Source: Kamptonema formosum PCC 10802
GTDB taxonomy: Bacteria; Cyanobacteriota; Cyanobacteriia; Cyanobacteriales; Oscillatoriaceae
Direction of reading: 5' to 3'
Assembly (NCBI RefSeq): GCF_000332335.1
Contig: NZ_KB235948.1
Coordinates: 4,884,281-4,944,608 of the forward strand
Length of the DNA: 60,328 bases
Shown one piece after another: positions 10,811-60,328 of this stretch (position 1 is the stretch's first letter; each line of letters starts with the position of its first letter). Position numbers and translations under genes: made by a program. The notes under the pieces were generated by a model. It was not told the origin of the DNA. It saw only the letters and a list, made by a program, of their open reading frames with translations, and made no database searches.

Positions 10811-10829
10811 AGATCGTGGCACGGATCTG

Positions 10830-11155
10830 TATAGCAGTATGCACTTAGGTTAGAACATTAGACCTTCTGGGGGGGCGGGACGCCTGCCCTACGTCTATAT
10901 AGCAGTAAGCATTTAGGAAACCTACATTCCGGCCTCCCTTGCTTCCCCACTCCCGAAGCGGGAGCATCCCGTTTTTGCAAAGACTGTTACCCTCACCCTC
11001 CTAACCCCCCTCTCCCAGGGCGGGAGAGGGGCGAAAGAATCAAAAATTCTCCCCTCTCCCCTTGTGGGAGAGGGGTTGGGGGTGAGGGGGATTACAAAAA
11101 TGGGATGTTCCCTTCCGAAGCTTCTATTGTTCTAACTAATATGACTGCTGCTATA
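10830..11155 (+). mobile_element. MITE, TATAGCAGT family, form B1, interrupted by a second MITE
   Basis: The left part (TATAGCAGTATGCACTTAGG onward) and right part (TTCTATTGTTCTAACTAATA, ending TGCTGCTATA) match the uninterrupted ~163-bp copies at 11287, 21387 and 30977. Between them, at 10960-11114, sits a different element. Confidence 0.85.
10960..11114 (+). mobile_element. nested MITE with GGGAGCATCCC terminal repeats and a 7-bp target duplication
   Basis: About 155 bp with inverted ends GGGAGCATCCCGTTTTTG and CAAAAATGGGATGTTCCC. It is flanked by CCGAAGC at 10953-10959 and 11115-11121, and that word occurs once in uninterrupted copies of the host MITE. Long C-rich and G-rich arms would fold into one hairpin. 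A second copy lies at 27785-27936. Confidence 0.85.
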
Positions 11156-11286
11156 ACAGCCAGCTGGCACTACCAGCTGTTGACCGGCACAGCCGGCATA
11201 TTGCCACCCCACTCCTTGAAAGCCGGCGTTTTGAGAAAGAGGGCTTGCGGCAAAACCCGCTGTTTGCAGGCGAGGAATTTAAATGC

Positions 11287-11450
11287 TATAGCAGTAGCCA
11301 CTTAGATTAGAACATTAGACCTTCAGGGGGGGCGGGACGCCTGCCCTACGTCTATATAGCAGTAAGCATTTAGGAAACCTACATTCCGGCCTCCCTTGCT
11401 CCAGAGCTCCCGAAGTTTCTATTGTTCTAACTAATATGACTGCTGCTATA
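11287..11450 (+). mobile_element. MITE, TATAGCAGT family, form B2
   Basis: A 164-bp copy, uninterrupted, with an internal TATATAGCAGTAAGCATTTA and the right end ATATGACTGCTGCTATA. It lies only 130 bp from B1 in the same orientation. Confidence 0.85.
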
Positions 11451-11654
11451 GCCGCCGGTTAGTTACCTCACGGCGTGTGGAGACTGCCCTCGTAGCGTCA
11501 CAGACGCTGGCACCGCAGATTGTGCCGGTTGCCGGTTTTCCCGACTGGTTCCGCCGGCACTATTTTTGACCCGGATGCCACGTTACCGCCAGCGGTTGCA
11601 GTCACCGCCACAATAGCCACCGCGCCTGCGAATAGCTGACAATCTGACTTTAGT

Positions 11655-12150
11655 GAAAACTTAGTGAAAACTCAGCCACACGCCACCGGCAATTTGAATT
11701 TACAAGCAGGAGATCCCGTGCGGGTGCGCGACGGTCCCGCCGCTGCTGGGGCGATTTCGGGTGGCAATCTCACCATTCAAGGAGATCGCAGTACCGGCAC
11801 TTTAGCCCTCAACCACCCATTCCCCGATCTCACATCAGCCGGCCACATTATTTTGGCGAGTGATGGCAATATTTCTGGCGGCGCTCACCCTCGCGTGCCG
11901 GTGGCAAGTTCTCGGCGATCAATTTTGCCGGTTGTGCGGGGAAGTTTGCCAGTTCGCACGCTCCGATTTTACCGCAAATCAGGATAGAATTGATTTCACC
12001 GGCGCTCTCCTTTTTAGCAGGATCTCTATCTCTCAAGGCGCGGGCGCTCGCGCCACCGGCACCATCATTCAGGATGCCCTAACAGGCGAGTATCGAGCTG
12101 TGTTGCTGGGGGCGCTCGCCGGCAGTTTAAACCAGAGTTCTTTTGTCTAA
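11655..12150 (+). pseudogene. fragment of a filamentous-haemagglutinin-type (two-partner secretion) adhesin
   Basis: The frame at 11664-11987 reads GNLNLQAGDPVRVRDG, ISGGNLTIQGDRS, LALNHPFPDLTSAGHIILAS, the beta-helix language of the large FHA/CHAT-associated secreted proteins of filamentous cyanobacteria. The expected continuation (GGKFSAINFAGCAGKFASS) appears in another frame from about 11890, so at least one frameshift is present. There is no N-terminal secretion domain and no start. It is a relic of a much larger gene. Confidence 0.6.
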
Positions 12151-45217: not shown

Positions 45218-46894
45218 ATGACTGATTTCAGGAACACGCCCATGCAACTGCACCGGCTACCAGAGGAAGAATCAGTAGAGAAGGACGGGCACCAGCCTGC
45301 TGAACTCGCCGCTGCGCCCCTCGAAGCGCCCCCGGCAGACACGCCGGCAGACACGCCGGCAGACACGCCGGCAGACACGCCCGCAGACACGCCCGCAGAC
45401 AGCTGGCCCGGGCGGAAGCGCAAGTGGCCAGTGAAGCCTGTGGTGCTCGGAGCGATCGCTGCTGCGGTGCTCGGCACCGGCGTCACGGCTTACCAAATTC
45501 AGCGCTCCGCTCAGCCGAAGAAAGATATTATAGCAGAACTGACGGTGCCGGTGGCAGCGCAGGACCTGACAGTCAGGATACAGGCGAGCGGCAATGTCAG
45601 GCCGGTGCAGAGCGTCAACCTGTCGCCGAAAACCCAGGGGCGGATAGCGGAGCTGCTGGTGGAGCAAGGCGACACGGTACAGGCGGGGCAAATTGTGGCT
45701 CGCATGGAGAGTGACGAGCTTCAAGCCCAAGTGCAGCAAGCGAAAGCGGGTGTGGCCCAAGCGGAAGCCCGCCTGCAAAAGCTGGAGTCGGGGAGCCGAG
45801 CGGAGGAGGTGGCTCAAGGGCAAGCGCGCCTGGAAAAAGCCAAGGCGAATTTGGCCCAGTTGCAGGCCGGCAGCCGCCTCGAAGAGATTGGGGAAGCCTC
45901 TGCCGGTGTGGCGAGAGCGGAGGCGCAAGTCGCCGAGGCGCAGTCGCGGCTGGCGCTGGCGGAAAAGAATGTCAAGCGCAACCGGCAGCTGGCGGCGCAG
46001 GGGGCAATCGCGACTCAAGAGCTCGACCGAACCATAGATGAGGCTCGCAGGGCGAAAGCTGCCCTGGAACAAGCGCAAGCCGGTGTGGCAGAAGCGAAGC
46101 AGCGCCTGGAAAGGCTGCAAAATGGCAGCCGCCCTGAGGAAATTGCCGGGGCTCAAGCCGCTGTGGCAGAAGCGCAGAGCCAGCTCGACCAGACGCTCAA
46201 TGGCAGCCGCCCTGAGGAAATTGCGGAGGCTCAAGCGGCTGTGGCGGAAGCCCGAGCGCGGCTGAAGCTGTCGGAAGTGCAGATGGAAGACACTGTGGTT
46301 CGCGCTCCTTTTCCCGGCACGATCGCCCAGCGATACGCTACGGTTGGGGCGTTTGTGACGCCCACGACTTCTGCTTCCAGTGCCGGTTCGGCTACCTCTA
46401 CTTCAATCGTGGCGCTGGCTAGGGGTCTGGAAGTCCTGGCGAAGGTGCCGGAAGCTGACATCAGTCAGATTAAACCGGGGCAAAAGGTTGAGATTGTGGC
46501 GGACGCCTATCCGGATGAAGTTTTTAAAGGTCGCGTCCATTTGATTGCCCCTGAGGCGATAAAAGAGCGGGATGTGACGCTGTTTGAAGTGCGGGTGGAT
46601 ATCGAGAGCGGCTTGAACAAGCTACAGTCGGGGATGAATGTGGATTTGACGTTTTTGGGGAACGAGCTAAAGGATGCTTTGGTGGTTCCTACGGTGGCGA
46701 TTGTGACTCAAAAGGGGCAAACCGGCATTTTGGTTCCGGGTGAGAAGAATAAGCCGGTTTTCCGCCCGGTGACGATTGGGCCGAGCATTGAAAATCAAAC
46801 TCAGATTCTTCAGGGGGTTCAGGCCGGTGAGCGGGTGTTTGTGGGCCTTCCGGAGGGTCAAAAGTTGGAGGATATTGTGAAGGAGAAGAAGTAG
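45218..46894 (+). CDS. HlyD/MacA-family periplasmic adaptor of an efflux pump
   Basis: A 558-residue membrane-fusion protein. A cytosolic N-terminus carries five DTPA tetrapeptides in a row, encoded by a 12-bp repeat at 45332-45400. One transmembrane helix follows at ~72-92 (VVLGAIAAAVLGTGVTAYQI). The lipoyl half-motif is RIAELLVEQGDTVQAGQIVA. A long coiled coil has repeated (N)GSRPEEIAxAQAAVAEA units. The second lipoyl half (VRAPFPGTIAQRYATVGAFV) and beta-barrel domains come last. It bridges the MacB-type permeases to an outer-membrane channel. First of a four-gene operon. Confidence 0.9.
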   Translation: MTDFRNTPMQLHRLPEEESVEKDGHQPAELAAAPLEAPPADTPADTPADTPADTPADTPADSWPGRKRKWPVKPVVLGAIAAAVLGTGVTAYQIQRSAQPKKDIIAELTVPVAAQDLTVRIQASGNVRPVQSVNLSPKTQGRIAELLVEQGDTVQAGQIVARMESDELQAQVQQAKAGVAQAEARLQKLESGSRAEEVAQGQARLEKAKANLAQLQAGSRLEEIGEASAGVARAEAQVAEAQSRLALAEKNVKRNRQLAAQGAIATQELDRTIDEARRAKAALEQAQAGVAEAKQRLERLQNGSRPEEIAGAQAAVAEAQSQLDQTLNGSRPEEIAEAQAAVAEARARLKLSEVQMEDTVVRAPFPGTIAQRYATVGAFVTPTTSASSAGSATSTSIVALARGLEVLAKVPEADISQIKPGQKVEIVADAYPDEVFKGRVHLIAPEAIKERDVTLFEVRVDIESGLNKLQSGMNVDLTFLGNELKDALVVPTVAIVTQKGQTGILVPGEKNKPVFRPVTIGPSIENQTQILQGVQAGERVFVGLPEGQKLEDIVKEKK

Positions 46895-46961
46895 GGGGCG
46901 TTATTGAACCGGCAAGACGCAGAGAGCGCCAAGAGAGGAGAAAAAAAGGGGTTTCTGAGCG

Positions 46962-48179
46962 ATGGATTTTGCTGAAAGTGTGAGAATGTCGGTGCAGACG
47001 CTGGTGGCTAATAAGATGCGCAGCGGTTTGACGATGCTGGGGATTGTTATTGGCAATGCGTCTGTGATTGCGATGCTGGGGTTGGGTGAGGGGGCGCAGC
47101 GGTTTGTGGAGGCGCAGGTGAATTCTCTGGGGACTAATGTGCTGTTTGTCGCGCCGGGAAGTCCGAAGGCTCAAACTCGACCGGTTTTTAGGCAGGAAAC
47201 GCTGGTGCTGGCAGATGCGGAGGCGATCTCGTCTCAGGTGCCTTCGGTGAGGGAGGTGGCTCCCCAGCTCACCGGTCAAGAACGGATCGCTTACCGCAAC
47301 AAAAATTCCTCTCCTCTTTTGTTTGGGGTGACACCGGCATTTCTCTCGGTGCGGAAATTTGATGTGGGTCAGGGCCGGTTTATTTCGGATTTAGACCTGA
47401 AGCGCAATGAGCAGGTTATCGCTCTGGGAAAAGATTTGGCGAAGAAGCTTTTTGGGGAGGAAAATCCGATTGGAAAGTCGGTGCGGGTGAAAAATGTTTC
47501 ACTGCAGGTGATTGGGGTGATGCAGCCTAAGGGCACGACTTTTGGGATGAATCTGGATGATACAGCTTTTGTGCCGCTGACGACGATGGCGAACCGGATT
47601 CTGGGGCGGACTTCTCCCTACGGAATGAAGGTCAGCTTTATTTCTGTTTCTGTGCGGGATGAAGCGAGCATGAAGGCGGCTGAGTTTCAGATTGCCAATC
47701 TGCTGCGGCTGCGCCACAAAATTACGGATGAGGATGATTTTACGGTTCGCAACCAGAAGGATTTGCAGAAGACGATGGGCGCTATCACCGGCGCTCTCAC
47801 GGCGATGCTGGCTGCGATTGCGGCAATTTCTCTGCTGGTCGGGGGAATTGGTATTATGAATATTATGCTGGTGTCGGTGACTGAGCGCACGAAGGAAATC
47901 GGTCTGCGCAAGGCGATTGGGGCGTCGGAGCAAGATATTTTGATGCAGTTTATGATTGAGGCGGTGATTCTTTCGGTTGCCGGCGGGCTGATTGGCACCG
48001 GCATCGGTGTGGGGGGGGTGCTGCTGGCGGGGAAGCTGACAAATTTGGAGGCGGGCATATCGCCGGTGGCGATTGTGCTGGCGACGGGAGTTTCTGGGGG
48101 CATCGGTCTGTTTTTTGGGGTGGTGCCGGCGCGCCGGGCGGCTCAGCTCGATCCGATTGTGGCGCTGCGGAGTGCTTGA
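46962..48179 (+). CDS. MacB-type ABC permease, first copy
   Basis: A 405-residue permease with one N-terminal helix, a periplasmic MacB_PCD domain and three C-terminal FtsX helices. It begins MDFAESVRMSVQTLVANKMR, then SGLTMLGIVIGNASVIAMLG and, near the end, SVTERTKEIGLRKAIGASEQ, the coupling motif. Tripartite pumps of this class export macrolides, siderophores, lipids or peptides. Spaced 67 bp from hlyD. Confidence 0.9.
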   Translation: MDFAESVRMSVQTLVANKMRSGLTMLGIVIGNASVIAMLGLGEGAQRFVEAQVNSLGTNVLFVAPGSPKAQTRPVFRQETLVLADAEAISSQVPSVREVAPQLTGQERIAYRNKNSSPLLFGVTPAFLSVRKFDVGQGRFISDLDLKRNEQVIALGKDLAKKLFGEENPIGKSVRVKNVSLQVIGVMQPKGTTFGMNLDDTAFVPLTTMANRILGRTSPYGMKVSFISVSVRDEASMKAAEFQIANLLRLRHKITDEDDFTVRNQKDLQKTMGAITGALTAMLAAIAAISLLVGGIGIMNIMLVSVTERTKEIGLRKAIGASEQDILMQFMIEAVILSVAGGLIGTGIGVGGVLLAGKLTNLEAGISPVAIVLATGVSGGIGLFFGVVPARRAAQLDPIVALRSA

Positions 48180-48224
48180 TTGGGCATGGGGCGTGGGGGG
48201 CAACACTATTGCTAATATCCAGTC

Positions 48225-48280
48225 TCTTGAAATTGCGGCTATACAAACGAAGCCCGCCTGCGCGGGCTATAGAAGTAAGT
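48225..48280. repeat. REP-like palindrome with conserved flank, between the two permeases
   Basis: TTGAAATTGCGGCTATACAA, ACGA, then AGCCCGC-CTGC-GCGGGCT at 48251-48268. The flank and hairpin match those at 51076-51132. It lies in the 205-bp gap separating the permease genes. Confidence 0.75.
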
Positions 48281-48384
48281 AAGGTGGGTATGCGTAACCC
48301 ACCTCACAAAAATAATCCTGCTCACCGAATAACGCACCCCACGGAAATAACGCCATCGAAGATGATGAGAAAAGGTGGAAACGT

Positions 48385-49602
48385 ATGGATGTTTTAGAAA
48401 GTGTGAGAATGGCGGTGCAGACGCTGGTGGCAAATCGGATGCGCAGCGCTCTGACGATGCTGGGAATTATTATTGGGAATGCTTCTGTTATTGCTATGAT
48501 TGGAGTGGGTGAGGGCGCGCAGCGGTTTGTCGCCGGCGAGTTGGAGGCTTTGGGACCAAATGTGCTGTTTGTGACGCCGGGGAGTGAGATGGCTGAGCGG
48601 TTGCCAGGTCCCCCACCGCAAACTCTGGTGCTGGCGGATGCGGAGGCGATCGCAGCTCAGGTCCCTTCGGTGACGGCTGTTGCGCCGGAACTCAACAGCA
48701 GTGAGATTGTGAGCTACCGCAATAAGAATTTTTCAGCGACGCTCACCGGCACGACGCCGGATTATTTGCCGGTGCGCAGTTTTGAGGTGGCTGAGGGGCG
48801 GTTTTTTACGGATTTGGATGTGCGGCGGAACAAGCTGGTTGTGGTTCTGGGTTCGGATACGGCAAAGGAACTTTTTGGGGGTGCGAATCCGATTGGAGAG
48901 CTGGTGCGCATTAAGGATGCTAGCTTTGAGGTGATTGGGGTGATGAAAGCCAAAGGGTCGTCTTTTGGCATGAATATGGATGAGACGGTTTTTCTGCCGG
49001 TGACGGCGATGGCTAACCGCATTGTGGGGCGGACTTCTCCCTATGGGATTTCTCTGACGATTATCTATGTGAATGCTCGGAATCAGGAAAGTATGGATGC
49101 GGCTCAGTTTCAGATTGAGAATTTGCTGCGGCTGCGCCACAAGATTGCGGACGAGAATGATTTTACGGTTCAGAATCAGAAGGATTTGCTGAAAACTACG
49201 GGGGCGGTGACGGGCGCTCTGACTGTGATGCTGGCAGCGGTGGCTAGCATCTCGCTTTTTGTTGGGGGAATTGGTATAATGAATATTATGCTGGTGTCGG
49301 TGACTGAGCGCACTCGCGAGATTGGCTTGCGGAAGGCTATCGGAGCGTCGGAGCGCGATATCCTATTTCAGTTTATCATTGAGTCGGTGATCCTGTCTGT
49401 CACCGGCGGTTTAGTTGGGGTTTTGACCGGCGGCGGCGGGGTGTTTCTGGTGGGGGCGCTGACGCCTTTGAAGGCGGGGGTGTCACCGGCTGCGGTGGCT
49501 CTGGCGACTGGGGTTTCTGGGGCGATCGGCCTGTTTTTTGGGGTGGTGCCGGCTCGCCGGGCTGCTAAACTTGACCCTATTGTTGCGTTGCGGAGTGAAT
49601 AA
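48385..49602 (+). CDS. MacB-type ABC permease, second copy
   Basis: A 405-residue paralogue of the preceding permease with the same length and layout: MDVLESVRMAVQTLVANRMR, ALTMLGIIIGNASVIAMIGV, TERTREIGLRKAIGASERDI, and ending in ARRAAKLDPIVALRSE. Divergence is spread over the periplasmic domain. The duplication suggests the pump uses a permease heterodimer rather than the MacB homodimer. Confidence 0.9.
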   Translation: MDVLESVRMAVQTLVANRMRSALTMLGIIIGNASVIAMIGVGEGAQRFVAGELEALGPNVLFVTPGSEMAERLPGPPPQTLVLADAEAIAAQVPSVTAVAPELNSSEIVSYRNKNFSATLTGTTPDYLPVRSFEVAEGRFFTDLDVRRNKLVVVLGSDTAKELFGGANPIGELVRIKDASFEVIGVMKAKGSSFGMNMDETVFLPVTAMANRIVGRTSPYGISLTIIYVNARNQESMDAAQFQIENLLRLRHKIADENDFTVQNQKDLLKTTGAVTGALTVMLAAVASISLFVGGIGIMNIMLVSVTERTREIGLRKAIGASERDILFQFIIESVILSVTGGLVGVLTGGGGVFLVGALTPLKAGVSPAAVALATGVSGAIGLFFGVVPARRAAKLDPIVALRSE

Positions 49603-49603
49603 G

Positions 49604-50362
49604 ATGCAAAATAAAGTTAGCCCTGTATCTCCTGCTGTGATTTCGGGGCGGAAGCGGGCGATTGTTCAGCTGGAAAATGTTTTTAAGGTTTACGGGATGG
49701 GGGATATTGAGGTTCGCGCTCTCAATGGGGTGAGCCTGACGGTTGAGCAGGGGGAGTATTGCTCTATTATGGGGGCTTCAGGTTCGGGGAAGTCTACGGC
49801 GATGAATATTATTGGCTGTCTGGACCGGCCCACTTCTGGAAGGTATTTTCTGGATGGGGTGGATGTGGCGCGGATGCCTGAGGGGGAGCTGGCGAAGATT
49901 CGCAATGTTAAGCTGGGGTTTGTGTTCCAGCAATTTCACCTTTTGCCGCAGCTGACGGCTCTGGAAAATGTTATGCTTCCTATGGTATATGCGGGGGTTG
50001 CCAGTGGGGACCGCCGGCAGCGTGCGGCTGAGGCGCTGCGCCGAGTTGGGCTGCAAAATCGGATGAATAATAAGCCGAACCAGCTGTCGGGAGGGCAGCA
50101 GCAGCGGGTGGCTATTGCGCGGGCAATTGTGAATAAGCCGGTGCTGTTGCTGGCGGATGAGCCTACGGGGGCTTTGGATTCCCGAACGACTCAGGAGGTG
50201 ATTGATATTTTCTCGGAGTTGAATGCCGGTGGGATTACGATTGTTATGGTGACGCACGAGCCGGATGTGGCTCGCTGCACTCGCCGGATTGTTTGGTTCC
50301 GGGATGGGCAGGTGATCCACTCTCATTTGACGCCTGATGAGTTGGGGCATGCTGTTTTTTGA
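49604..50362 (+). CDS. ABC ATPase of the MacB/LolD type
   Basis: A 252-residue ATPase with Walker [10 protein letters not shown], signature [16 protein letters not shown], Walker [13 protein letters not shown] and a VTHEP switch His. The ATG lies one base after the stop of the second permease, so translation is coupled. An upstream in-frame start within the permease was rejected. With the HlyD protein and two permeases it forms a DevBCA/MacAB-like exporter. Confidence 0.93.
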
Positions 50363-50536: not shown

Positions 50537-50950
50537 ATGAGCGGAAATTTCACGCAGTTGTATGTCCATTTTGTTTGGGCGACCTGGGACAGATTGCCTC
50601 TGATTACGCCAGATATCCAGAAGCCGGTTTATCAGGCAATTGTTGGGCAGTGCAACCAGCTGAGATGCACGACAATCGCCATTGGCGGCATTGAGGAGCA
50701 TGTACATCTATTAATCGGCTTCCCGCCCACTCTGGCAATATCTGATATAATAAAACAAATTAAGGGCAGTACGTCCCATTTGATTGCTCGCGAAATTAAA
50801 CCCCGTGAGTTCTTTAAATGGCAGGGCAGCTATGGGGCTTTTACTGTGATCGAGGGTGCCATCGACTCAGTGGCTAACTACATCAGACACCAGGCAACCC
50901 ATCACCGCGAAAAATCAATTATTCCTCTTTGGGAGCTAGCTCCTACCTAA
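50537..50950 (+). CDS. tnpA: IS200/IS605-type Y1 transposase (TnpA, RAYT-like)
   Basis: A complete 137-residue HUH enzyme. The metal-binding His-x-His is EEHVHLL (His55, His57) and the nucleophilic tyrosine is Tyr115 in VANYIRHQATHH. Internal motifs are LYVHFVWATWDRLPLITPD and WQGSYGAFTV. No TnpB gene adjoins it. The proximity of palindromic REP-like repeats in both orientations suggests a REP-associated transposase (RAYT) rather than a plain IS200; that is inference. It nicks single-stranded DNA at hairpins. Confidence 0.9.
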   Translation: MSGNFTQLYVHFVWATWDRLPLITPDIQKPVYQAIVGQCNQLRCTTIAIGGIEEHVHLLIGFPPTLAISDIIKQIKGSTSHLIAREIKPREFFKWQGSYGAFTVIEGAIDSVANYIRHQATHHREKSIIPLWELAPT

Positions 50951-51075
50951 CCAGAGTAATTTCCATTTAGATCCCACCGGCAGACTTCGGGATTAGCCAG
51001 GTTCCTGGCGATTGAAAGAGACTGTTGGCGAATGCGTGAGGGGTTAGACCTACAGCTAGTTCCTAGGCGATTAGC

Positions 51076-51622
51076 CAGGTTCCTAGCGATTGGAAATCGC
51101 GGCTATACAAACGAAGCCCGCCTTCGCGGGCTAAGAGTAGAGCGAGGCTCTCAAAATTTGCCCGGGTTTTCCTCGGTTGATTCTCACCGGCATGTCTTGT
51201 AGCAACCCGCGCCGCCGGGTTTGGCTAGCCGTGATTTCTAAGATAATGTTGGCGTCGTCTTTCCTGGGAAAAGAACCGCGCAGACTGTGAGAGTCTCCTT
51301 CTACTCTTTAGCCCGCGAAGGCGGGCTTTGTCTGTATAGCCGCGATTTCCAATCGCCTGGGAATTAGCAAAAAGCCTAGCCCCTTACGCAGAGCGCCAAC
51401 AGTATCTTTCCAATCGCCGGCATATCCCGCAATAAGCGATTTCATTCTCACCGGCATGTCTTGTAGCAACCCGCGCCGGCGGGTTTGGCTAGCCGTGATT
51501 TCTAAGATAATGTTGGCGTCGTCTTTCCTGGGAAAAGAACCGCGCAGACTGTGAGAGTCTCCTTCTACTCTTTAGCCCGCGAAGGCGGGCTTTGTCTGTA
51601 TAGCCGCGATTTCCAATCGCCT
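51076..51622. repeat. inverted pairs of REP-like palindromes (BIME-like)
   Basis: The unit is GCGATTGGAAATCGCGGCTA then TACAAACGA and the hairpin AGCCCGC-CTTC-GCGGGCT, followed by AAGAGTAGA. Direct copies have hairpins at 51115-51132 and 51873-51890; inverted copies at 51310-51327 and 51574-51591. All four are nearly identical over about 70-80 bp. This head-to-head arrangement is the layout of BIMEs. Confidence 0.85.
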
Positions 51623-51707
51623 GGGAATTAGCAAAAAGCCTAGCCCCTTACGCAGAGCGCCAACAGTATTTTTCCAATCGCCGGCATATCCCGCAATAAG
51701 CGATTTC
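51180..51707. repeat. 264-bp tandem duplication
   Basis: Two adjacent copies begin at 51180 and 51444 (ATTCTCACCGGCATGTCTTG) and differ at only a few positions (CGCCGCCGGG versus CGCCGGCGGG). A partial third start is at 51708. Each contains one inverted REP-like hairpin. Confidence 0.92.
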
Positions 51708-51843
51708 ATTCTCACCGGCATGTCTTGGATCACCCCGCGCCGGCGGGTGAAACTCTGATGAGCCGGTATTGATAAGATGGTGTTGGTGAATGCGTGAGGG
51801 GTTACAGGTTTTGCTAATTCCCCGGCGATTAGCCAGGTTCCTA

Positions 51844-51920
51844 GCGATTGGAAATCGCGGCTATACAAACGAAGCCCGCCTTCGCGGGCTAAGAGTAGAG
51901 CGAGACTCTCAAAATCTGCC
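51844..51920. repeat. fourth REP-like unit, direct orientation
   Basis: GCGATTGGAAATCGCGGCTA, the hairpin at 51873-51890, and AAGAGTAGAGCGAGACTCTC. It matches the unit at 51086-51165 almost base for base. Confidence 0.85.
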
Positions 51921-52108
51921 TGGTTTTTCCTCGGTTGATTGCTTCCCACCGGCACTCTGCCGGCTGAATGAATTCCGCGCCGGTGTGCGCGGTGCGGGGG
52001 GGTTTTGTCGGGAGGGTGTCTCTTTTGAATTTGGGCTGTGGGGCGCAACCGGCGTGTATTGTTGGGGGGGGTGGGTTACGCTTCGCTAACCCACCCTACT
52101 GGGGCTTT

Positions 52109-52195: not shown

Positions 52196-52996
52196 TTGGA
52201 TCGGGGTTCTTTAACTGTTGTTGGCACCGGCATTCAACTGGTGGGCCATCTGACTTTGGCGGCGCGGTCTTGGATTGAGGGCGCGGATAAGGTGCTGTTT
52301 GCTGTGGCTGACCCGCTGACGGCTAAGTGGCTGCAGTCTCTCAATCCTGCCGCTGAATCTTTGCCCTACGATACCGGCAATTTGCGGCGCAGGAAAACTT
52401 ATGATGAAATGGTGGGGCGGATTTTGGTTGAGGTTCGCTCTGGGTTGAATGTCTGCGCGGTTTTTTACGGCCATCCGGGGGTGTTTGCTGACCCGGCTCA
52501 CGAGGCGATTCGGCAGGCTCGTCGGGAGGGGTTTCGGGCGGAAATGCTGCCTGGAATTTCGGCGGAAGACTGTCTGTTTGCTGATTTGGGGGTTGACCCG
52601 GGACGCAATGGCTGTCAGAGTTTTGAAGCGACGGATTTCCTGATCCGCCGGCGCAAATTTGACCCGACTAGCGTTCTGATTTTGTGGCAGATTGGTTTCA
52701 CCGGCAATTTGGGGTTTTTCAAGGAAAACGCCCACTTGCGGGGTTTGAAGGTGTTGGCGGAGGTTTTGCAAACCGATTACGGTCCTGAGCATGAGGTGAC
52801 GGTTTACGAGGCGGCGGTTTACTATCCGGTGTGCTCGCCTACTATTGAGCGGATGCGCCTGTGCGAGTTGCCAAATGCTTCCGTGACGCCGGTTTCGACG
52901 CTTTATGTGCCGCCCAAAGCCCCTGCGCCGGTGGATGCGGAAATGATGGCCCGGTTGGGGATTTCTGTTGGGCCGGGGCGGGGCGGGAAAGATTAA
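52196..52996 (+). CDS. split borosin peptide-backbone alpha-N-methyltransferase
   Basis: A 266-residue SAM enzyme of the tetrapyrrole-methylase fold. It has GSLTVVGTGIQLVGHLTLAA, then RRRKTYDEMVGRILVEV, YGHPGVFADPAHEAIRQAR, PGISAEDCLFADLGVDPG, QSFEATDFLI, and ERMRLCELPNASVTPVSTLY. As I recall, it aligns through its whole length with SonM of Shewanella and lacks the features of cobalamin methylases. Such enzymes N-methylate backbone amides of a separate precursor. No in-frame ATG exists; TTG 52196 gives MDRGSLTVVG with GGGGG upstream. GTG 52181 is the alternative. First gene of the cluster. Confidence 0.9.
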   Translation: MDRGSLTVVGTGIQLVGHLTLAARSWIEGADKVLFAVADPLTAKWLQSLNPAAESLPYDTGNLRRRKTYDEMVGRILVEVRSGLNVCAVFYGHPGVFADPAHEAIRQARREGFRAEMLPGISAEDCLFADLGVDPGRNGCQSFEATDFLIRRRKFDPTSVLILWQIGFTGNLGFFKENAHLRGLKVLAEVLQTDYGPEHEVTVYEAAVYYPVCSPTIERMRLCELPNASVTPVSTLYVPPKAPAPVDAEMMARLGISVGPGRGGKD

Positions 52997-53093
52997 GAAA
53001 TGTGTAAAAATCTGTATGAACCTTGTGGGGGGTGAACAGGGTATGCTTTGATCGTAGTCATCAACAAGTTGTGCAAGTGGTGTGGGGTTCAGG

Positions 53094-53990
53094 ATGTGCG
53101 GGACTCAAGCGCAAGAGGACACTCTAGCTGCCCTCAACCGGGCCATCGAACAGAATCCTCAGGACATTCGGGCCATTGCCCGCCGGGGGGAGATGTGCCG
53201 GCTGGCGGGGCGCTATGAGGACGCTCTGGCGGATTTCAGCCGGGCGATTGCGCTGCAGCCTGACTACGCCTGGGCCATCGCCCACCGGGGCGAGACTTAC
53301 TACCTGCTGAAACGCTATCGGGAAGCGCTGGCTGATTTTAACCGAGCGGTGGAACTCCAGCCCACTTACGTTTGGGCGCTGGCCCACCGGGGCGCAAGCT
53401 ACCATCGCCTGAATCGCTACGATGAGGCTCTGGCTGACTTTAATAAGGTTCTTGAGCTGAAGCGGGACTATGCTTGGGCTTTCTTCTATCGTGGCCAGCT
53501 TCACTGTCTGGTGAACCGCTATGAGGAAGCTTTGGCGGATTGCGACCGGGCGATTGCTCTTGACAAAACTATCATTCCCTCTTGGCCAGGTGAGCGCGGG
53601 CTGCTGCTGAGCTATCTGGGACGGTATGCTGAGGTGATTGAATGTTGCGAGCGAGGGTTGCAGGATAGCCCGGATGACTTTATTACCCTGTACACGCTTG
53701 CTGTGGTCAAGGCTCGCTGGAAAGGGTTGGGTGAGGCGCAAGCTGAAATCCAACAGACGCGAACTGCCTTACAAGCTGGAGTGAATGGGCCACAGCGTGC
53801 CGGTGCCCTTTATCGGCTTGGCGGTCTGGCGGCGCTTGAGGGACACTCTGAGGAGGCGCTGAACTATCTGAGTGAAGCAATCTCGCTAGAGAATGAGCCG
53901 CTTGAGTTAGCTCGGCGGGACTTGGCATGGCTTGACCTGCGTGCCGATAGGCGCTTTCAATCGTTAATCGCGACGGCCAGAGAGGAGTGA
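53094..53990 (+). CDS. TPR-repeat protein within the borosin cluster
   Basis: A 298-residue protein made of about seven 34-residue TPRs, the central ones unusually alike: YAWAIAHRGETYYLLKRYRE, ALADFNRAVELQPTYVWALA, HRGASYHRLNRYDEALADFN, YAWAFFYRGQLHCLVNRYEE. There is no signal peptide. ATG 53094 (MCGTQAQED) was preferred to the upstream GTG. It lies 97 bp after the methyltransferase. TPRs scaffold protein or peptide partners; a role in presenting or carrying the precursor is possible but unproven. Confidence 0.85.
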   Translation: MCGTQAQEDTLAALNRAIEQNPQDIRAIARRGEMCRLAGRYEDALADFSRAIALQPDYAWAIAHRGETYYLLKRYREALADFNRAVELQPTYVWALAHRGASYHRLNRYDEALADFNKVLELKRDYAWAFFYRGQLHCLVNRYEEALADCDRAIALDKTIIPSWPGERGLLLSYLGRYAEVIECCERGLQDSPDDFITLYTLAVVKARWKGLGEAQAEIQQTRTALQAGVNGPQRAGALYRLGGLAALEGHSEEALNYLSEAISLENEPLELARRDLAWLDLRADRRFQSLIATAREE

Positions 53991-54091
53991 AGGCAGTCCA
54001 TCTGCTTACAATTTAAAAAATTATGTGCGGGACGCTTATCCGCTCTGGAGTCCAGAAATTATTGGAATAGATAGGAGGGTACATTTACCAG

Positions 54092-54745
54092 ATGACGTGC
54101 AAATCTGATGACAGTATTAAGACGCTTACTCACGAAGGCGAAACCTTCCTCCAAGTGGGGAACTACGACAAGGCTATAGATTGCTTTACCGCAGTCATCG
54201 AGAAAAAGCCTTCCGCTTGGGTCTACGCCCACCGGGGTGAAGCCTACCGCTTACAAGCGTCCTTTAACAATGCGCTCGATGACTTTGAGAAAGCTATAGA
54301 ATTATCAGGAGGAGCCAATAGCAAGTACGCCTGGGCCTACGCTCACAAGGGTGAGACGCTCCGCGTGATGGGAGGGCCTAGCAAGAAGAAAGCTCTCACG
54401 GATTTCACTCGCGCTGTGGAAATAAACCCCAAGTACGCCTGGGCTTACGCCCACCGTGGTGGGAGCCATGACTTGTACAACCAAAGCGAACTGGAGCCAG
54501 CTCTGGAAGATTTTGACAAAGCCATCTTGCTGTATCCCAAATACGCCTGGGCCTTTGCCTTCCGGAGTGCCGTCTACTTGTTTTTGGGCGAGGGTGACAG
54601 AGCGTACTACGATCTGCTGCATGCTATATCGCTCGACAATACTATAGTTCGCGATCCGATAATCCGGCAACTTAAGGGATCTCTAAGGAATCGCATTGCA
54701 GAGAACAAGAACAATAGTAAAATTAAGACTCCCTTGCCAGATTGA
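54092..54745 (+). CDS. second TPR-repeat protein within the borosin cluster
   Basis: A 217-residue protein with about five TPRs sharing the KYAWAYAHRGxxx signature (KYAWAYAHKGETLRV, KYAWAYAHRGGSHDLYN, KYAWAFAFRSAVYLFLGEGD). The common YAWA-AHRG motif shows that it and the previous protein are paralogues. A good ribosome site (TAGGAGGG) precedes ATG 54092. It is followed after 106 bp by the putative precursor gene. Confidence 0.85.
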   Translation: MTCKSDDSIKTLTHEGETFLQVGNYDKAIDCFTAVIEKKPSAWVYAHRGEAYRLQASFNNALDDFEKAIELSGGANSKYAWAYAHKGETLRVMGGPSKKKALTDFTRAVEINPKYAWAYAHRGGSHDLYNQSELEPALEDFDKAILLYPKYAWAFAFRSAVYLFLGEGDRAYYDLLHAISLDNTIVRDPIIRQLKGSLRNRIAENKNNSKIKTPLPD

Positions 54746-54851
54746 GTTACAATTCTGCTGAGAGCCAACTGTGTGCTGGACGCAGAGTAAATGGCCCATT
54801 TTTCAGACTGTGCGCTCAAATTCTAAGAACTAGACCCATGAGGTGCATACC

Positions 54852-55163
54852 TTGAGCAAGTTATTCGATTTTTTGACCGATTTGACCACAAATCCCAGAC
54901 AGCAAGAAGCATTCGCGAAGGCTCCTGACACCGTTATGGCTGCGGTAGGGCTATCGGAACTGGAGCGAGCTGCGCTAAAGAGCGGGAATTCCGCCCGCAT
55001 TGCTGCCACCTTCACCAATCATATTATTCCTTCTGCTTTTTCACTTGTAGATCCTGCTCCTGATCCTTTCCCCGACCCAGACCCCCCGGACTCAGATGAG
55101 CCTGATTCAGATTCTCCAGATGGAGAAAACCGAGCGCTAGGACAGCAGTACGCATCAAAATAG
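54852..55163 (+). CDS. putative split borosin precursor peptide
   Basis: A 103-residue protein. Residues 1-52 (MSKLFDFLTDLTTNPRQQEA, then FAKAPDTVMAAVGLSELERA and ALKSGN) resemble the helical borosin-binding domain of SonA-type precursors, a LigA-like leader with the pattern PxxVMxxxGLxxxExxAL. A short hydrophobic segment IIPSAFSLV (58-66) is followed by a run of DP/PD pairs, SD repeats and the C-terminal GQQYASK. No enzyme motif. TTG 54852 has GAGGTG 6 nt upstream and matches the family N-terminus; the in-frame GTG at 54843 is less good. Which residues are methylated cannot be read. Confidence 0.75.
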   Translation: MSKLFDFLTDLTTNPRQQEAFAKAPDTVMAAVGLSELERAALKSGNSARIAATFTNHIIPSAFSLVDPAPDPFPDPDPPDSDEPDSDSPDGENRALGQQYASK

Positions 55164-55312
55164 GAACGGCTCGCAGGTAGAAAGTGACATTCCCCACAGA
55201 TGAGCATTTATATACTTGCGCCGCTCTCATATTTTCAGAAAAAATAATTAGCTTGTATGCTGTCGCTTTTTAGCCACTGAAGCGCTTAAAAGCGAGATAG
55301 GTTAATAGCGGG

Positions 55313-55338
55313 AAAACCCTGCTGTAGCGGGGTTTTTT
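55313..55338 (+). terminator. rho-independent terminator after the precursor gene
   Basis: AAAACCCTGC-TGTA-GCGGGGTTTT with two mismatches, then TTTTTTC. A weaker hairpin (CGCTTTT/AAAAGCG) lies just upstream at about 55264-55293. Confidence 0.75.
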
Positions 55339-55442
55339 CGTAAGGAGCGATGGGACAAAAGGGTGCTGGATATCCCTGAAAGTTTGGCAGGGAAATTGCT
55401 AAAATATAATAGGCGGGTCACAAAAAAGGATAGCAAGTAAAA

Positions 55443-58400
55443 ATGATAACGATTTCTGGCTGCCAGATAACCCAACAGCTGCACGAAAGCGCTTCCTCAC
55501 TGGTGTTTCGGGCAATGAGGCCAACAGATGGCCAGCCGCTTGTCCTCAAAATGTTGAAACAAGCCTATCCCCCGCCCGAAATAGTGGCCCAGTTCAGACG
55601 GGAGTATGAAGTCACCCGCAGCTTGAACTTGGCGGGAGTGGTGGATGCCTACAGCTGGGAAAGCGACAGCAACCGTCCGGTGATGGTGCTGGAAGACTTC
55701 GGCGGAGAGTCCCTCGCTAAGCTCAATCTAGCTGGGAGCTTGACTTTAACCGGCTTTCTCCCCCTAGCGATTGAAATTGCCAGCATTTTAGGCCAAATTC
55801 ATCAAAGATATATTATCCACAAAGATATCAACTCGTCCAACATCCTCTTCAACCCAGCAACCCAACAAGTCAAAGTCATTGACTTTGGCATTTCCACAGT
55901 GCTTTCGCGAGAAAACCCAACGTTTGGCAATCCCAATTTGCTGGAGGGAACACTGGCATATATCTCCCCAGAACAGACGGGACGGATGAACCGGGCGATC
56001 GATTACCGCACAGATTTTTACTCCCTGGGGGTAACATTCTACGAGTTGCTGACCGGCCAGTTGCCTTTTGCCACGGATGATGCCCTGGAATTAGTGCACT
56101 GCCACATTGCCAAAGTGCCGGCACCCCCGCACGACCTCAAACCCGACATTCCCCAGACGGTTTCAGAAATCGTGCTGAAACTGATGGCCAAAAATGCCGA
56201 AGACCGCTACCAGTCCGCGCGGGGGCTGGTTGCGGACTTAGAGGAATGCCTGCGACAGTGGCAGGCAAAAAATCAGATTGACCCCTTCCGACTCGGACGG
56301 CATGATATTTCCGACCGGTTCCAAATTCCGCAAAAGCTTTACGGACGGGAAAAGGAAGTCGCAACCCTGATGGCTGCGATTGAGCGAGTCAGTTCTGGGG
56401 CGAGCGAAATGATACTGGTTTCCGGCTATTCCGGCATCGGCAAGTCAGCCCTGGTGCAGGAAGTCTACAAACCCCTGACCAAGCAGCGCGGCTACTTCAT
56501 CTCCGGAAAATTTGACCAATTTCAGCGCAATATTCCCTACGCATCGCTGATACAAGCATTTCGGTCGCTGGCGCAGCAACTGCTCACCGAAACAGAAGCC
56601 CAAATCGCCCGCTGGCGGGAGAAACTCCAGGCGGCTTTGGGAGCGAATGGACAGGTGATTGTAGAGGTCATCCCAGAAGTGGAGCTGATTATTGGCCCCC
56701 AACCTTCCGTCCCCGAACTGGGTGCCGCCGAAGCGCAAAATCGCTTTAACCTGGTGTTTCAAAACTTCATTAAAGTCTTTACCCAGCCGCAACATCCCCT
56801 GGTTGTTTTCTTGGACGATTTGCAGTGGGCGGATGGGGCTTCTCTGAAATTAATTCAGCTGCTGATGGCGGCGGCGGAACCCGGACTGTCCTTAATCGGG
56901 GCGTATCGCGACAACGAAGTCAGCGATGCGCACCCGCTGATGCTGGCAATTGAAGAGATAAAAAAAGCCGGCGCAACCGTCAATCAGATTTCACTTTTCC
57001 CCTTAGCCACACGGCACATCACCGAGTTGATTGCTGACCTGCTGCACTGCCAGCCAGCGCCGGCCCAACCGCTGGCAGAATTGGTGCGGGCCAAAACCGG
57101 CGGCAATCCCTTTTTCGTCACAGAGTTTCTCAAGTCCCTGTATGCCGAACAGCTGATTGCCTTTGACTATCAGCGGAACTCCTGGCAGTGGGATTTGCGG
57201 CAAATCCAAAGCCGGCAGATCACAGATAACGTCGTGGAACTGATGGCGGCCAAAGTGCAGAAGTTACCGCCAGAAACCCAAGCCGTGTTGAAGCTTGCCG
57301 CTTGTGCCGGCAACCAGTTCGACTTGGACCGGCTGGCGGTTGTGTCTGAAAAAGCGCCGCGAGAAACAGCCGCCGATTTGTGGCCGGCGATAGCAGAGGG
57401 TTTTGTTTTGCCCCTCTCCGACACCTACAAGTTGATGGAACTGGATGTGGAAGGTCTTTCCGATCAGGTGTCGGCGGAGTACAAGTTTGCCCACGACCGC
57501 ATCCAGCAAGCGGTCTATTCCCTAATTCCGGAAGCGGACAAACAGGCGGTGCATCTGCGGGTGGGGCAGCTGCTGCTGCAGAATACGCCGGCAGAGGAGC
57601 TGGAGCTGAAAATATTTGATATCGTCAACCAGCTCAACCAAGGTCGGGCGTTAATCGGGGAGCAAACCGAGCGCGATGAGCTGGGCCGGTTAAATCTGCA
57701 GGCGGGGAAAAAAGCAAAAGCCTCGGCAGCCTATCAGTCGGCGTTGAGCTATTTGCAGCTCGGCATTGGACTGCTGGGCGAGAATAGCTGGCAGACCCAG
57801 TATGACCTGACCCTAGCACTCTATGAGGAAGCGGCAGAGGCTGCGTATCTCTGCGGCGACTTTGAGGAGATGGAGCGATTGGGAGCCCTCGTCTTGGAAC
57901 GCGCTTTAACGCCGCTGGACAAAGTGGCAGTCTATGAAGCGAAGATCCTAGCCTATTCAGCACAAAGCAAACTGCTGCTATCACTGCAGACTGGCCTCGA
58001 ATTTCTAAAGTTGTTGGATCTGATCTTTCCCGAAAAGCCAACTTTGGCAGATATTATGCAAGCCCTACAGGAAACACAGTCAGTTCTGGCAGGGAAAGAG
58101 CCACGAGACTTAATCGAGCTGCCGGCAATGACAGAGCGGGCAAAACTGGCAGCCATGCGGATTCTGACCAAGTTATGTCTGCCAGCCTTTGTTGCCATGA
58201 ACGAACTGATACCATTGCTAATCGGCAAACAAGTAAATTTATCGGTCGAATATGGCAATGCCGCTGATTCTGCCTATGCGTATGCGATGTACGGTCTCAT
58301 CCTCTGCGGTGGGGGAGACATTGATACTGGCTATCTATTCGGCCAACTTGCTTTACAGGTGTTAGAACGGTTGAATGCTAAAAAGCTCAAAGCCAGAACC

Positions 58401-60328
58401 TATTTTATGGTGAGCGCATTTGTAACACATTGGAAAGAACGCCTTAGGGATATAGTTCCCCTTTTTTTAGAGAGCTATCAAAGCGGATTGGCTGCCGGAG
58501 ATTTAGAATTTGCCGCTAATGGATCGGCCACTTACTCTATTACTTCCTATTTAGCGGGTAAGGAGTTGAACGAACTGGAACGAGAAATGGCAAAATATGG
58601 AAAAGCCCTTGCCAAGCTCGGACAAGAAACTATTTTGCATTACCATTTAATCTACTGGCAGGCAGTCTTGAACTTGCTGGGTAGATCGGAAAATAGGTGC
58701 CGTTTAATGGGTGAAGTCTACCGAGATTACAAAATGCTGCCACTCCACATTGCAGCCAGGGATAGAGGCTCCCTTTTTAATCTTTATTTTAACAGTAAGA
58801 TCCTCTTTTATCTGTTTCAAGAAGTAAGACAGGCTAGTGAATATCTAGAAATAGCAGAAGAGTATTTTATCCAGTTGGAGACATCTCTCTATGCTCCTCC
58901 ATACAATTTGTATAATTCGCTGATTCGGCTGGCCGTATTTCCTGACGCCCCCGAATCCGAGCGAGAGCGCATCCTGGAGAAAGTCGCCGCCAACCAGGCG
59001 AAAATGGAAACCTGGGCCAAGCACGCCCCCATGAATTGCGCCCACAAATTCCACCTCGTGGAAGCGGAACGCGCCCGCGTGCTGGGCAACTATGCCGAAG
59101 CCCGAGAGCACTACGACTCGGCAATCGCCCTCGCGCAAGAAAACGAATACCTCAACGAAGAAGCCCTCGCCTGCGAACTGGCGGGCCGGTTTTATCTCGC
59201 CCGTGGCCAAAACCGCATCGCCCGCCACTATTTGCAAGACGCCCACTATGCCTACCAGCAGTGGGGTGCGGTGGCAAAAGTCAAGGACTTGGAGGAACGA
59301 TATCCCCAGTTTCTCGCACCGGCATCCTCCGCAACCAAAAGCGCCACCATCTCCACCACCGGCAGCGGTTCCGGCGAAACCCTGGACTTAGCCACCGTCG
59401 TCAAAGCCTCGCAAGCGATAGCCGGTGAAATCGTCCTCGACAAATTGCTCGCCAAACTCATCAACCTCGTCCTGGAAAATGCCGGTGCTCAAAAAGGTTT
59501 CCTCATCCTTTCCGATAGCGGCAAACTCACCATTGAAGCTGCCCTTCACGCCGACAATCCCGCCGAAGTTCTGCAATCAATTCCCGCCCTTGACAGCGGA
59601 CTTCTCCCCGCAGCCATCATCAATTATGTCGCCCGCACGCAGGAAAATGTCGTCTTAAACGACGCCAGCAGCGAGGGAATCTTCACCACAGACTCTTATA
59701 TTACCGCAAACCAGCCCAAATCCGTCTTGTGCGCCCCTATCCTCAACCAAGGCAAACTCACCGGCATCCTCTACCTGGAGAATAACATCGCCAACGCCGC
59801 ATTTACCGCCGACCGGCTGGAAGTGGTGAGAATCCTTTCCGCCCAAGCAGCCATCTCCATTGAAAACGCGCTCCTGTACCGAACCCTAGAGCAAAAAGTC
59901 ATCGAGCGCACCGCCCAACTCGCCGCCGCCAACCAAGAAATCACCCTGCTCAACGAGCGCCTGAAAGCCGAGAACATGCGGATGGCGGCGGAACTGGAAA
60001 TCACGCGCCGGTTGCAGCGGATGATTTTGCCCAAAGAGGAAGAACTGCATCAAATCCCGGAACTGGATATTGCCGGTTTCATGGAGCCCGCCGACGAAGT
60101 GGGCGGCGACTACTACGACGTGCTGCAAAGCCACGGGCGCGTTAAAATCGGCATCGGCGACGTAACCGGACACGGCTTAGAAAGCGGCGTGCTGATGATC
60201 ATGGTGCAAACCGCAATCCGCACCCTGCTGGAAAATAGCGAAACCGACCCCAAAAAATTCCTTGACACCGTTAACCGGACGATTTATAATAATGTTACGC
60301 GGATGAATTCCGACAAAAACCTCAGCCT
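55443..60328 (+). CDS. multidomain Ser/Thr kinase, AAA ATPase, GAF and SpoIIE-phosphatase protein (partial)
   Basis: Open from ATG 55443 to the window end (1,628 codons, C-terminus missing). The kinase domain spans ~1-275 with IIHKDINSSNIL (HKD in place of HRD, ~125) and VIDFGIS (~147). The P-loop NTPase has GYSGIGKSALVQ at ~327 and VVFLDDLQWADG. A long helical region follows, then GAF at ~1330-1475, a coiled coil, and a PP2C/SpoIIE domain (QRMILPKEEE, EVGGDYYDVLQ, IGIGDVTGHGLESGVLM) that usually ends such proteins. These giant proteins are common in filamentous cyanobacteria and integrate stress signals. A terminator separates it from the borosin genes, so a shared function is not implied. 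Confidence 0.92.
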   Translation, partial: MITISGCQITQQLHESASSLVFRAMRPTDGQPLVLKMLKQAYPPPEIVAQFRREYEVTRSLNLAGVVDAYSWESDSNRPVMVLEDFGGESLAKLNLAGSLTLTGFLPLAIEIASILGQIHQRYIIHKDINSSNILFNPATQQVKVIDFGISTVLSRENPTFGNPNLLEGTLAYISPEQTGRMNRAIDYRTDFYSLGVTFYELLTGQLPFATDDALELVHCHIAKVPAPPHDLKPDIPQTVSEIVLKLMAKNAEDRYQSARGLVADLEECLRQWQAKNQIDPFRLGRHDISDRFQIPQKLYGREKEVATLMAAIERVSSGASEMILVSGYSGIGKSALVQEVYKPLTKQRGYFISGKFDQFQRNIPYASLIQAFRSLAQQLLTETEAQIARWREKLQAALGANGQVIVEVIPEVELIIGPQPSVPELGAAEAQNRFNLVFQNFIKVFTQPQHPLVVFLDDLQWADGASLKLIQLLMAAAEPGLSLIGAYRDNEVSDAHPLMLAIEEIKKAGATVNQISLFPLATRHITELIADLLHCQPAPAQPLAELVRAKTGGNPFFVTEFLKSLYAEQLIAFDYQRNSWQWDLRQIQSRQITDNVVELMAAKVQKLPPETQAVLKLAACAGNQFDLDRLAVVSEKAPRETAADLWPAIAEGFVLPLSDTYKLMELDVEGLSDQVSAEYKFAHDRIQQAVYSLIPEADKQAVHLRVGQLLLQNTPAEELELKIFDIVNQLNQGRALIGEQTERDELGRLNLQAGKKAKASAAYQSALSYLQLGIGLLGENSWQTQYDLTLALYEEAAEAAYLCGDFEEMERLGALVLERALTPLDKVAVYEAKILAYSAQSKLLLSLQTGLEFLKLLDLIFPEKPTLADIMQALQETQSVLAGKEPRDLIELPAMTERAKLAAMRILTKLCLPAFVAMNELIPLLIGKQVNLSVEYGNAADSAYAYAMYGLILCGGGDIDTGYLFGQLALQVLERLNAKKLKARTYFMVSAFVTHWKERLRDIVPLFLESYQSGLAAGDLEFAANGSATYSITSYLAGKELNELEREMAKYGKALAKLGQETILHYHLIYWQAVLNLLGRSENRCRLMGEVYRDYKMLPLHIAARDRGSLFNLYFNSKILFYLFQEVRQASEYLEIAEEYFIQLETSLYAPPYNLYNSLIRLAVFPDAPESERERILEKVAANQAKMETWAKHAPMNCAHKFHLVEAERARVLGNYAEAREHYDSAIALAQENEYLNEEALACELAGRFYLARGQNRIARHYLQDAHYAYQQWGAVAKVKDLEERYPQFLAPASSATKSATISTTGSGSGETLDLATVVKASQAIAGEIVLDKLLAKLINLVLENAGAQKGFLILSDSGKLTIEAALHADNPAEVLQSIPALDSGLLPAAIINYVARTQENVVLNDASSEGIFTTDSYITANQPKSVLCAPILNQGKLTGILYLENNIANAAFTADRLEVVRILSAQAAISIENALLYRTLEQKVIERTAQLAAANQEITLLNERLKAENMRMAAELEITRRLQRMILPKEEELHQIPELDIAGFMEPADEVGGDYYDVLQSHGRVKIGIGDVTGHGLESGVLMIMVQTAIRTLLENSETDPKKFLDTVNRTIYNNVTRMNSDKNLS

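Follow-up and report, generated by a model that had tools for sequence, protein, structure and literature searches.

A candidate cyanobacterial split-borosin locus with probable tetratricopeptide repeat partners and a linked multi-sensor kinase in Kamptonema formosum

A borosin-type gene set in Kamptonema formosum PCC 10802

Borosins are peptides that carry backbone alpha-N-methylations. We analysed a stretch of 60,328 nucleotides from contig NZ_KB235948.1 of Kamptonema formosum PCC 10802 (genome G000, 8.6 Mb); this whole stretch is called the window, and positions follow its numbering. It holds a gene set that, judging from sequence comparison, very probably puts backbone methyl groups on a small peptide. 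We read the region as a cyanobacterial split-borosin locus with a separate SonM-type enzyme, a separate precursor, dedicated tetratricopeptide repeat (TPR) partners, and a linked multi-sensor Ser/Thr kinase, and we give this reading a probability of roughly 0.7. The features are as follows (aa, amino acids):

52196..52996, plus strand: borosin-type alpha-N-methyltransferase of the SonM family, 266 aa, TTG start (PF00590, SonM in the PDB, catalytic residues)
53094..53990, plus strand: TPR protein 1 (TPR1), reading frame opening at GTG 53082 (TPR_1, AlphaFold2, relatives)
54092..54745, plus strand: TPR protein 2 (TPR2), 217 aa (TPR_1)
54852..55163, plus strand: precursor, 103 aa, TTG start (SonA profile, AlphaFold2, Foldseek, motif conservation)
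55308..55341, plus strand: terminator hairpin between precursor and kinase (RNA folding)
55443..60328, plus strand: giant multi-domain Ser/Thr kinase, leaving the window (Pfam, 18/19 loci, tree)

The open reading frame (ORF) of the methyltransferase opens at 52163, upstream of its TTG start at 52196, and residues of TPR1 are numbered from codon 53097. At the precursor, GAGG lies eight bases upstream of the TTG start, and the precursors of relatives begin with MSKLF or MSNLL at the matching position. The gaps measure 85 or 97 base pairs (bp) between enzyme and TPR1, 101 bp between TPR1 and TPR2, and 106 bp between TPR2 and precursor. An earlier sequence-only reading of this DNA had described four genes on one strand at about 100-bp spacing, closed by a terminator, and both parts of that description hold. 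Folding of 55290-55345 yielded a 15-bp hairpin at 55308-55341 followed by a T run (-22.5 kcal/mol, z -4.11), and we accept the terminator because this hairpin was more stable than all 200 shuffles. Behind the precursor, a consensus terminator scan had no entry (5 sites in the region, 4.5 expected by chance); consensus scans for promoters and terminators were therefore rejected as evidence, their yield being at chance level, and the hairpin was judged by folding. Two points were missing from the earlier reading, namely the kinase gene at 55443 and the strong conservation of a Pro/Asp motif in the precursor.

Enzyme and precursor resemble the SonM-SonA pair

The enzyme matched Pfam PF00590 at 1.4e-21. 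Its best match in the PDB was SonM (E 4e-63), followed by dbOphMA and the OphMA family (4e-60 to 2.6e-57), whereas corrin and siroheme methylases matched at only about 1e-3. It also scored far below the cut-offs of the NCBIfam equivalogs for cobalamin and siroheme methylases. The mechanism paper on SonM names Y58, R67, and Y71 (PMC8429565). Their aligned counterparts in the window enzyme are Y58, R65, and Y69, and all three were retained in 20 of 20 close relatives aligned; neither the Arg nor the second Tyr is found at these columns in the seven other tetrapyrrole methylases of the same genome. Of 19 more distant relatives aligned (from 57), 17 have the Arg and all 19 the second Tyr. Only 1 of them shows the first Tyr, in a gappy region where this may reflect either misalignment or a real difference.

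A FastTree phylogeny was calculated for 41 borosin-like enzymes (the window enzyme, 20 close relatives, 19 of the 57 distant loci, and a second copy in the window genome), with the seven other PF00590 proteins of that genome as outgroup. A long branch (support 0.77) set the 41 enzymes apart as one group, within which the window enzyme belonged to the clade of the 21 close enzymes (support 0.85). An identity as a cobalamin or siroheme methylase was rejected on the PDB matches, the NCBIfam scores, and the separate position in the tree. The clustering with such methylases that would have spoken against the sequence-only reading did not occur, and its assignment of the enzyme to the SonM type is upheld. 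The enzyme is rare. Of 388 class genomes, 9 have it, and in four of these, the window genome among them, the identity is at least 74%.

The precursor consists of a borosin-binding domain (residues 1-55), a variable hydrophobic stretch (56-66), a Pro/Asp motif (67-78), and a variable acidic tail. As a lone query, it matched SonA only at E 0.09. A profile of 19 precursor sequences matched SonA at 8.5e-8, ungapped through residue 66, and no other solved protein fell below 0.1. AlphaFold2 predicted five helices within residues 3-55 with a pLDDT around 90, the rest of the precursor being of low confidence; the SonA binding domain is a five-helix bundle (PMC8429565). In a Foldseek search with the precursor model, SonA was the best match (TMt 0.90, rmsd 1.2, E 0.012), and the best 50 of 64 matches were all SonA or OphMA/dbOphMA structures, with no E-value below 0.001. 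The borosin-binding-like leader proposed earlier is thus borne out by both profile and fold. Taken together, the sequence matches and the modelled fold make it highly probable that the locus pairs a separate SonM-type enzyme with a separate borosin precursor bearing a predicted binding domain.

Gene order is conserved among close relatives

Scanning genome contigs with the enzyme, we took the best 80 of 156 relatives, which represent 79 distinct loci. The close group comprises 22 loci (L024-L044 and L056), all with cyanobacterial titles except L038, which is labelled Thioploca. Among these and the window (23 loci), a precursor lies downstream in 19, from 18 genomes, L028 and L033 sharing one. 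The four others are L029, where the contig ends, L038, whose precursor is on another contig, L044, and L056. The order methyltransferase, TPR protein(s), precursor was kept in all 19 precursor-bearing loci; two TPR genes were present in 16 of them, and in 6 of these 16 the enzyme and TPR1 genes abut or overlap. Within the fetched flanks, only the enzyme, the TPR proteins, the precursor, and the kinase belong to gene families found in more than 8 of the 23 loci. The upstream side serves as a built-in control, its commonest family reaching only 8 of 23. The set also exists apart from the enzyme: genome G406, whose enzyme lies on another contig, encodes TPR proteins, a precursor that carries the Pro/Asp motif, and, next to the TPR genes, a divergent kinase of this type. 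As far as gene order can tell, the arrangement is more than chance, and the TPR genes belong to it. The earlier inference of a single pathway is now backed by the order conserved in 19 loci.

TPR proteins as probable partners of the precursor

The two middle genes encode TPR proteins, as proposed earlier: Pfam TPR_1 matched TPR1 at 2.4e-41 and TPR2 at 1.6e-21. The AlphaFold2 model of TPR1 is all helical, with a mean pLDDT of 94.3, and 16 relatives share 46-64% identity with the protein. The TPR2 position is occupied in relatives by TPR proteins of about 200-480 aa, and in the six relatives examined the Pfam matches of the second TPR gene above cut-off were TPR families.

In TPR1, W59, W93, and W127 are 34 residues apart, and in the model each is the second residue of the first helix of successive repeats, a position that faces the groove in TPR domains. 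Wherever an aligned row covers these positions, the three Trp as well as R64, R98, and R132 are conserved (16 or 17 of 17 rows). The associated signature Y-x-W-A-x-A-H-R-G occurs three times in the 8.6-Mb genome, always in TPR1 or TPR2, although the genome contains at least 150 TPR_1 matches. It was found in 10 of 388 class genomes, including all 4 with a close enzyme. In a fold search with TPR1, the best 50 of 1622 matches were ordinary TPR or similar helical-repeat proteins and indicated no function. RRNPP proteins are TPR regulators of peptide signalling. No helix-turn-helix (HTH) family was among the Pfam matches listed for TPR1 (best 25) or TPR2, so the two proteins do not look like RRNPP receptors of the kind with a DNA-binding domain; Rap-type members, which lack HTH, would be compatible with this result. 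On the whole, we consider it quite probable that the TPR proteins are dedicated partners of the precursor.

A multi-sensor kinase is linked to the locus

The kinase has 1681 aa in the window genome and 1780 and 1807 aa in two relatives; in most loci it is partial. Pfam found Pkinase, AAA_16, and GAF in all three kinases examined, followed by HisKA/HATPase in L106 and SpoIIE in L105 and the window genome; in the latter, the SpoIIE match is confined to profile positions 2-56 of 192. HstK-type multi-sensor kinases of cyanobacteria combine Pkinase, AAA, and GAF with a histidine-kinase output. The three kinases agree with this type in Pkinase, AAA_16, and GAF, and one of them (L106) also in the output domain; the clade of the window kinase differs in being tied to the borosin locus.

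In 18 of the 19 precursor-bearing loci, the precursor is followed on its own strand by a homologue of the window kinase, with short TPR ORFs intervening in L030 and L039. In a tree of 50 kinases, 19 were adjacent ones (17 from precursor-bearing loci plus L044 and L056; L034 was left out). Of these, 18 fell into one clade with 100/100 support, together with a relocated copy from Moorena bouillonii and one paralogue from the window genome. At E<=1e-20, the window genome encodes only 8 kinases of this type in 8.6 Mb, which makes accidental adjacency unlikely there. In one Moorena genome (G397), the only kinase of this type at E<=1e-100 sits at the borosin locus. We therefore lean towards a functional coupling of the kinase to the borosin set. 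About 2.2 kb beyond the window kinase follows another of its type (L103, 224-5269 and 7468-12756), and a Cys/His-rich repeat ORF separates the two.

Counter-evidence and the alternative of an ordinary biosynthetic cluster

Several observations weigh against the reading of the four components as one system. The 19 loci are not independent, with two from one genome and several from near relatives, and common descent might account for some of the conservation in gene order. In L056 (Oscillatoria princeps RMCB-10, 6004-8838), the closest relative found, the enzyme frame is broken and the kinase is kept, and neither a TPR nor a precursor match was found at that place. The TPR signature also occurs in six genomes without a listed enzyme match, in four of them within long TPR-bearing ORFs elsewhere and in two outside any TPR match; as an exclusive mark of borosin loci it was therefore rejected (6 of 10 signature-bearing genomes). 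With regard to the kinase, Moorena bouillonii is the exception to adjacency, its orthologue lying elsewhere in the genome, and the adjacent kinase of L044, a locus lacking a precursor, falls outside the clade. Moreover, such kinases are numerous, with 2 to 26 in six of seven genomes searched (E<=1e-100), and given the terminator between precursor and kinase, a shared transcript is not required. Finally, methylation, binding, phosphorylation, and signalling are all functions predicted from sequence.

The locus might instead be an ordinary split-borosin natural-product cluster, in which the TPR proteins act as chaperones or scaffolds of biosynthesis and the kinase is a cluster regulator or an accidental neighbour. 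We regard this as a serious alternative, albeit the less probable one. Split borosins are widespread in bacteria according to a review, and enzymes for ribosomally synthesized and post-translationally modified peptides (RiPPs) that depend on partner proteins are known (PMC13097080). Cytochrome P450 genes between enzyme and TPR gene in two loci (L029, L039) and the MacB-type exporter upstream in the window would likewise fit a metabolite cluster. However, no protease or exporter family recurred within the fetched flanks of the 23 loci, which mostly end before the genes beyond the kinase, and the small number of such kinases in the window genome argues against accidental adjacency.

The Pro/Asp motif and the position of the core

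The pattern P-x-x-D-P-x-P-D-P-D-P was present in all 19 precursors, 16 of which have P.PDP.PDPDP. In the window precursor the motif reads D-P-x-P-D-P-x-P-D-P-D-P and directly follows the hydrophobic stretch. Based on the 14 rows remaining of 19 after removal of near-copies, mean pairwise column identity was 0.52 for the binding domain, 0.34 for the hydrophobic stretch, 0.84 for the motif, and 0.30 for the tail. The motif codons differ synonymously among precursors; thus, conservation acts on the protein sequence.

SonA is methylated at L63 and I65 (PMC8429565). These residues align with F63 and L65 of the window precursor, inside the hydrophobic stretch just before the motif. The sequence-only reading had described a Pro/Asp-rich core: the Pro/Asp stretch is indeed present, but its status as core is doubtful, as the SonA alignment places the methylated positions in front of it. 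Judging from the sequence pattern, the actual core may lie in the variable hydrophobic stretch, with the Pro/Asp motif serving to dock the TPR proteins. We prefer this arrangement because it would account for the conservation observed: a core free to vary and, after it, a recognition element that is kept. The enzyme would then grip the binding domain and methylate backbone nitrogens from F63 and L65 onward.

Alternatively, the motif itself could be the methylated core, with the enzyme continuing after F63 and L65 at D67, A69, D71, F73, D75, and D77. In the ungapped SonA alignment, the methylated positions 63 and 65 share the odd register with the non-Pro residues 67-77. In addition, split-borosin methylation proceeds from N to C (PMC8429565), and some borosin enzymes tolerate varied cores, according to a review. 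Every even position from 68 to 78 is Pro in the window precursor, and such a product would therefore form a rod without backbone NH from 67 to 78. A core that is better conserved than its leader would be unusual for a RiPP, however, and 3 of the 19 precursors read P-V-D-D-P in the motif, which breaks the alternation. Methylated cores in one study of 11 pairs were mainly hydrophobic, as reviewed. Overall, a methylated motif appears rather unlikely.

An alpha-helical motif is improbable, and the helix-driven positioning put forward for SonA would then scarcely extend through it. As a docking element, the motif could form a stiff, extended rod that is held in the TPR groove through the regularly spaced Trp, His, and Arg residues. 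The TPR-held rod would either present the peptide to the enzyme or allow the finished product to be read. A precedent for an aromatic TPR groove that reads a Pro-rich stretch is the TPR domain of collagen prolyl 4-hydroxylase, which holds proline-rich polyproline-II peptides through Tyr (PMC12433258). The residues there are Tyr and here Trp; the comparison is one of analogy, and binding by the K. formosum proteins is a proposal. We tentatively suggest, at slightly less than even odds, that the TPR proteins bind the Pro/Asp motif.

A possible signalling role

Through the kinase, the product or the state of its methylation could be coupled to a cellular response, and the presence of the kinase in nearly all close relatives hints that this kind of peptide may have a signalling role. 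In the most far-reaching version, the product would be an internal or exchanged signal: a backbone-methylated Pro/Asp rod that is read by the TPR proteins and passed to the multi-sensor kinase. We consider this version improbable. If it were true, the locus would represent a kinase signalling system built on backbone N-methylation, unlike an antibiotic-like metabolite. A GGDEF domain is named in a borosin figure legend (PMC11395268/PMC11285071), so signalling-type fusions are not unheard of. Kept across many cyanobacteria, the nearly invariant motif, the TPR partners, and the orthologous kinase provide a testable functional hypothesis for split borosins, with named residues at which mass spectrometry could look.

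Borosin loci outside the close group

In relatives outside the close group, the precursor mostly lies just upstream of the enzyme. With an iterated profile of the binding domain, 53 of 64 such loci proved to contain the domain, including two with matches no stronger than E 0.01; 57 of the 64 loci stem from genome contigs and 7 from genome searches, and two of these 7 are one and the same place. We consider it very improbable that the small protein of the window is instead a LigA- or IniB-like domain protein with a structural role, the enzyme methylating something else, and rejected LigA or IniB as its main identity: the matches to NCBIfam IniB_NTERM (3.3e-6) and Pfam LigA (0.083) are both below curated cut-offs, and although folds like the binding domain also occur in dioxygenases (PMC8429565), the precursor profile, the structural matches, and the recurrence of the domain beside distant enzymes all point to borosins.

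A Ser/Thr kinase was present in the fetched flanks of 15 of the 57 contig-derived loci. In a positional control, which took in 14 of 19 known kinases (5 were dropped by an overlap filter), kinases made up 10 of 108 first-neighbour genes as opposed to 4 of 298 genes at rank 2 or beyond (Fisher p 0.0005). Of eight such kinases examined, five are Pkinase-TPR fusions (one weakly), one is a Pkinase-WD40 fusion, and two are without such repeats. The 14 genomes in question encode many kinases, with 19 to at least 95 found, and the excess beside distant borosin enzymes is therefore suggestive only. If the signal version held, these Ser/Thr kinases of other phyla, several of them Pkinase-TPR fusions, would mark a wider theme.

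The window genome has a second SonM-like enzyme with a binding-domain ORF (L104; G000:C3:6000000-6014000, 3155-12070, minus strand). The binding-domain ORFs of L104 and of L127 from Oscillatoria princeps end in TPLLG/VPILG. Near the former lie a subtilase with PatG_D and PatG_C and two proteins combining Methyltransf_11, PatG_D, and PatG_C; L127 has an ORF that shares its start with the L104 subtilase, plus a second similar ORF. Both may possibly be borosin/cyanobactin-like hybrid loci. Binding-domain proteins with long repeated tails (for example VVYAAGA, MVYGA, PQIHPQIF) were observed in L078, L086, L092, and L094, which are labelled Deltaproteobacteria, Myxococcales, Solirubrobacter, and Phenylobacterium.

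Comparison with known borosin systems

Fungal-type borosins have a hydrophobic C-terminal core. The window enzyme is homologous to the methyltransferase of the fused fungal OphMA and dbOphMA (about 1e-57 to 4e-60), and the clasp/binding-domain fold is likewise shared; in contrast to the fungal proteins, enzyme and precursor are separate in the window. The type IV pair SonM-SonA of Shewanella oneidensis (PMC8429565) shares with the window the separate enzyme and precursor, the enzyme family, the catalytic residues, and the five-helix binding domain. The window locus differs from this pair in the downstream position of its precursor, in the TPR genes between enzyme and precursor, in a conserved Pro/Asp motif unseen in the SonA chains aligned, and in the linked multi-domain kinase.

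Earlier work has described split borosins, including their binding domain and their distribution among bacteria (PMC8429565, PMC11285071, PMC11395268). According to PMC8429565, no type IV split borosin had been tied to a final natural product at the time of description; in that paper, a kinase is mentioned once, as a cloning reagent. Types V-X and 0/XI also combine binding domain and core in one protein with a separate enzyme, the class 3 arrangement of split borosins (PMC11395268, PMC11285071). We provisionally regard the K. formosum locus as a cyanobacterial variant of the split borosins. In the literature searched, which leaves most subscription papers outside, no paper combined borosin with tetratricopeptide, and nothing was found for tetratricopeptide with backbone N-methylation and precursor peptide. 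One survey of split borosins reportedly treats a borosin pathway that involves shikimate kinase.

Genes flanking the locus

Upstream in the window, positions 45218-50362 encode an HlyD-type fusion protein, two MacB-like permeases, and an ABC ATPase, followed by an IS200-like transposase at 50537-50950. These exporter genes are not shared with the other loci, except for the ABC ATPase family in L038. The P450 genes mentioned above lie at 1647-2852 in L029 and 6959-8014 in L039. The upstream family found in 8 of 23 loci is represented by an AAA_35 ATPase in L026 (4625-6004) and by short ORFs in L024 and L025. Immediately upstream of the enzyme, near-identical short ORFs at 51032-51202, 51308-51469, and 51572-52048 look like repeated intergenic DNA, and a similar piece is also located near the second borosin locus of the genome (L104, 6963-7274).

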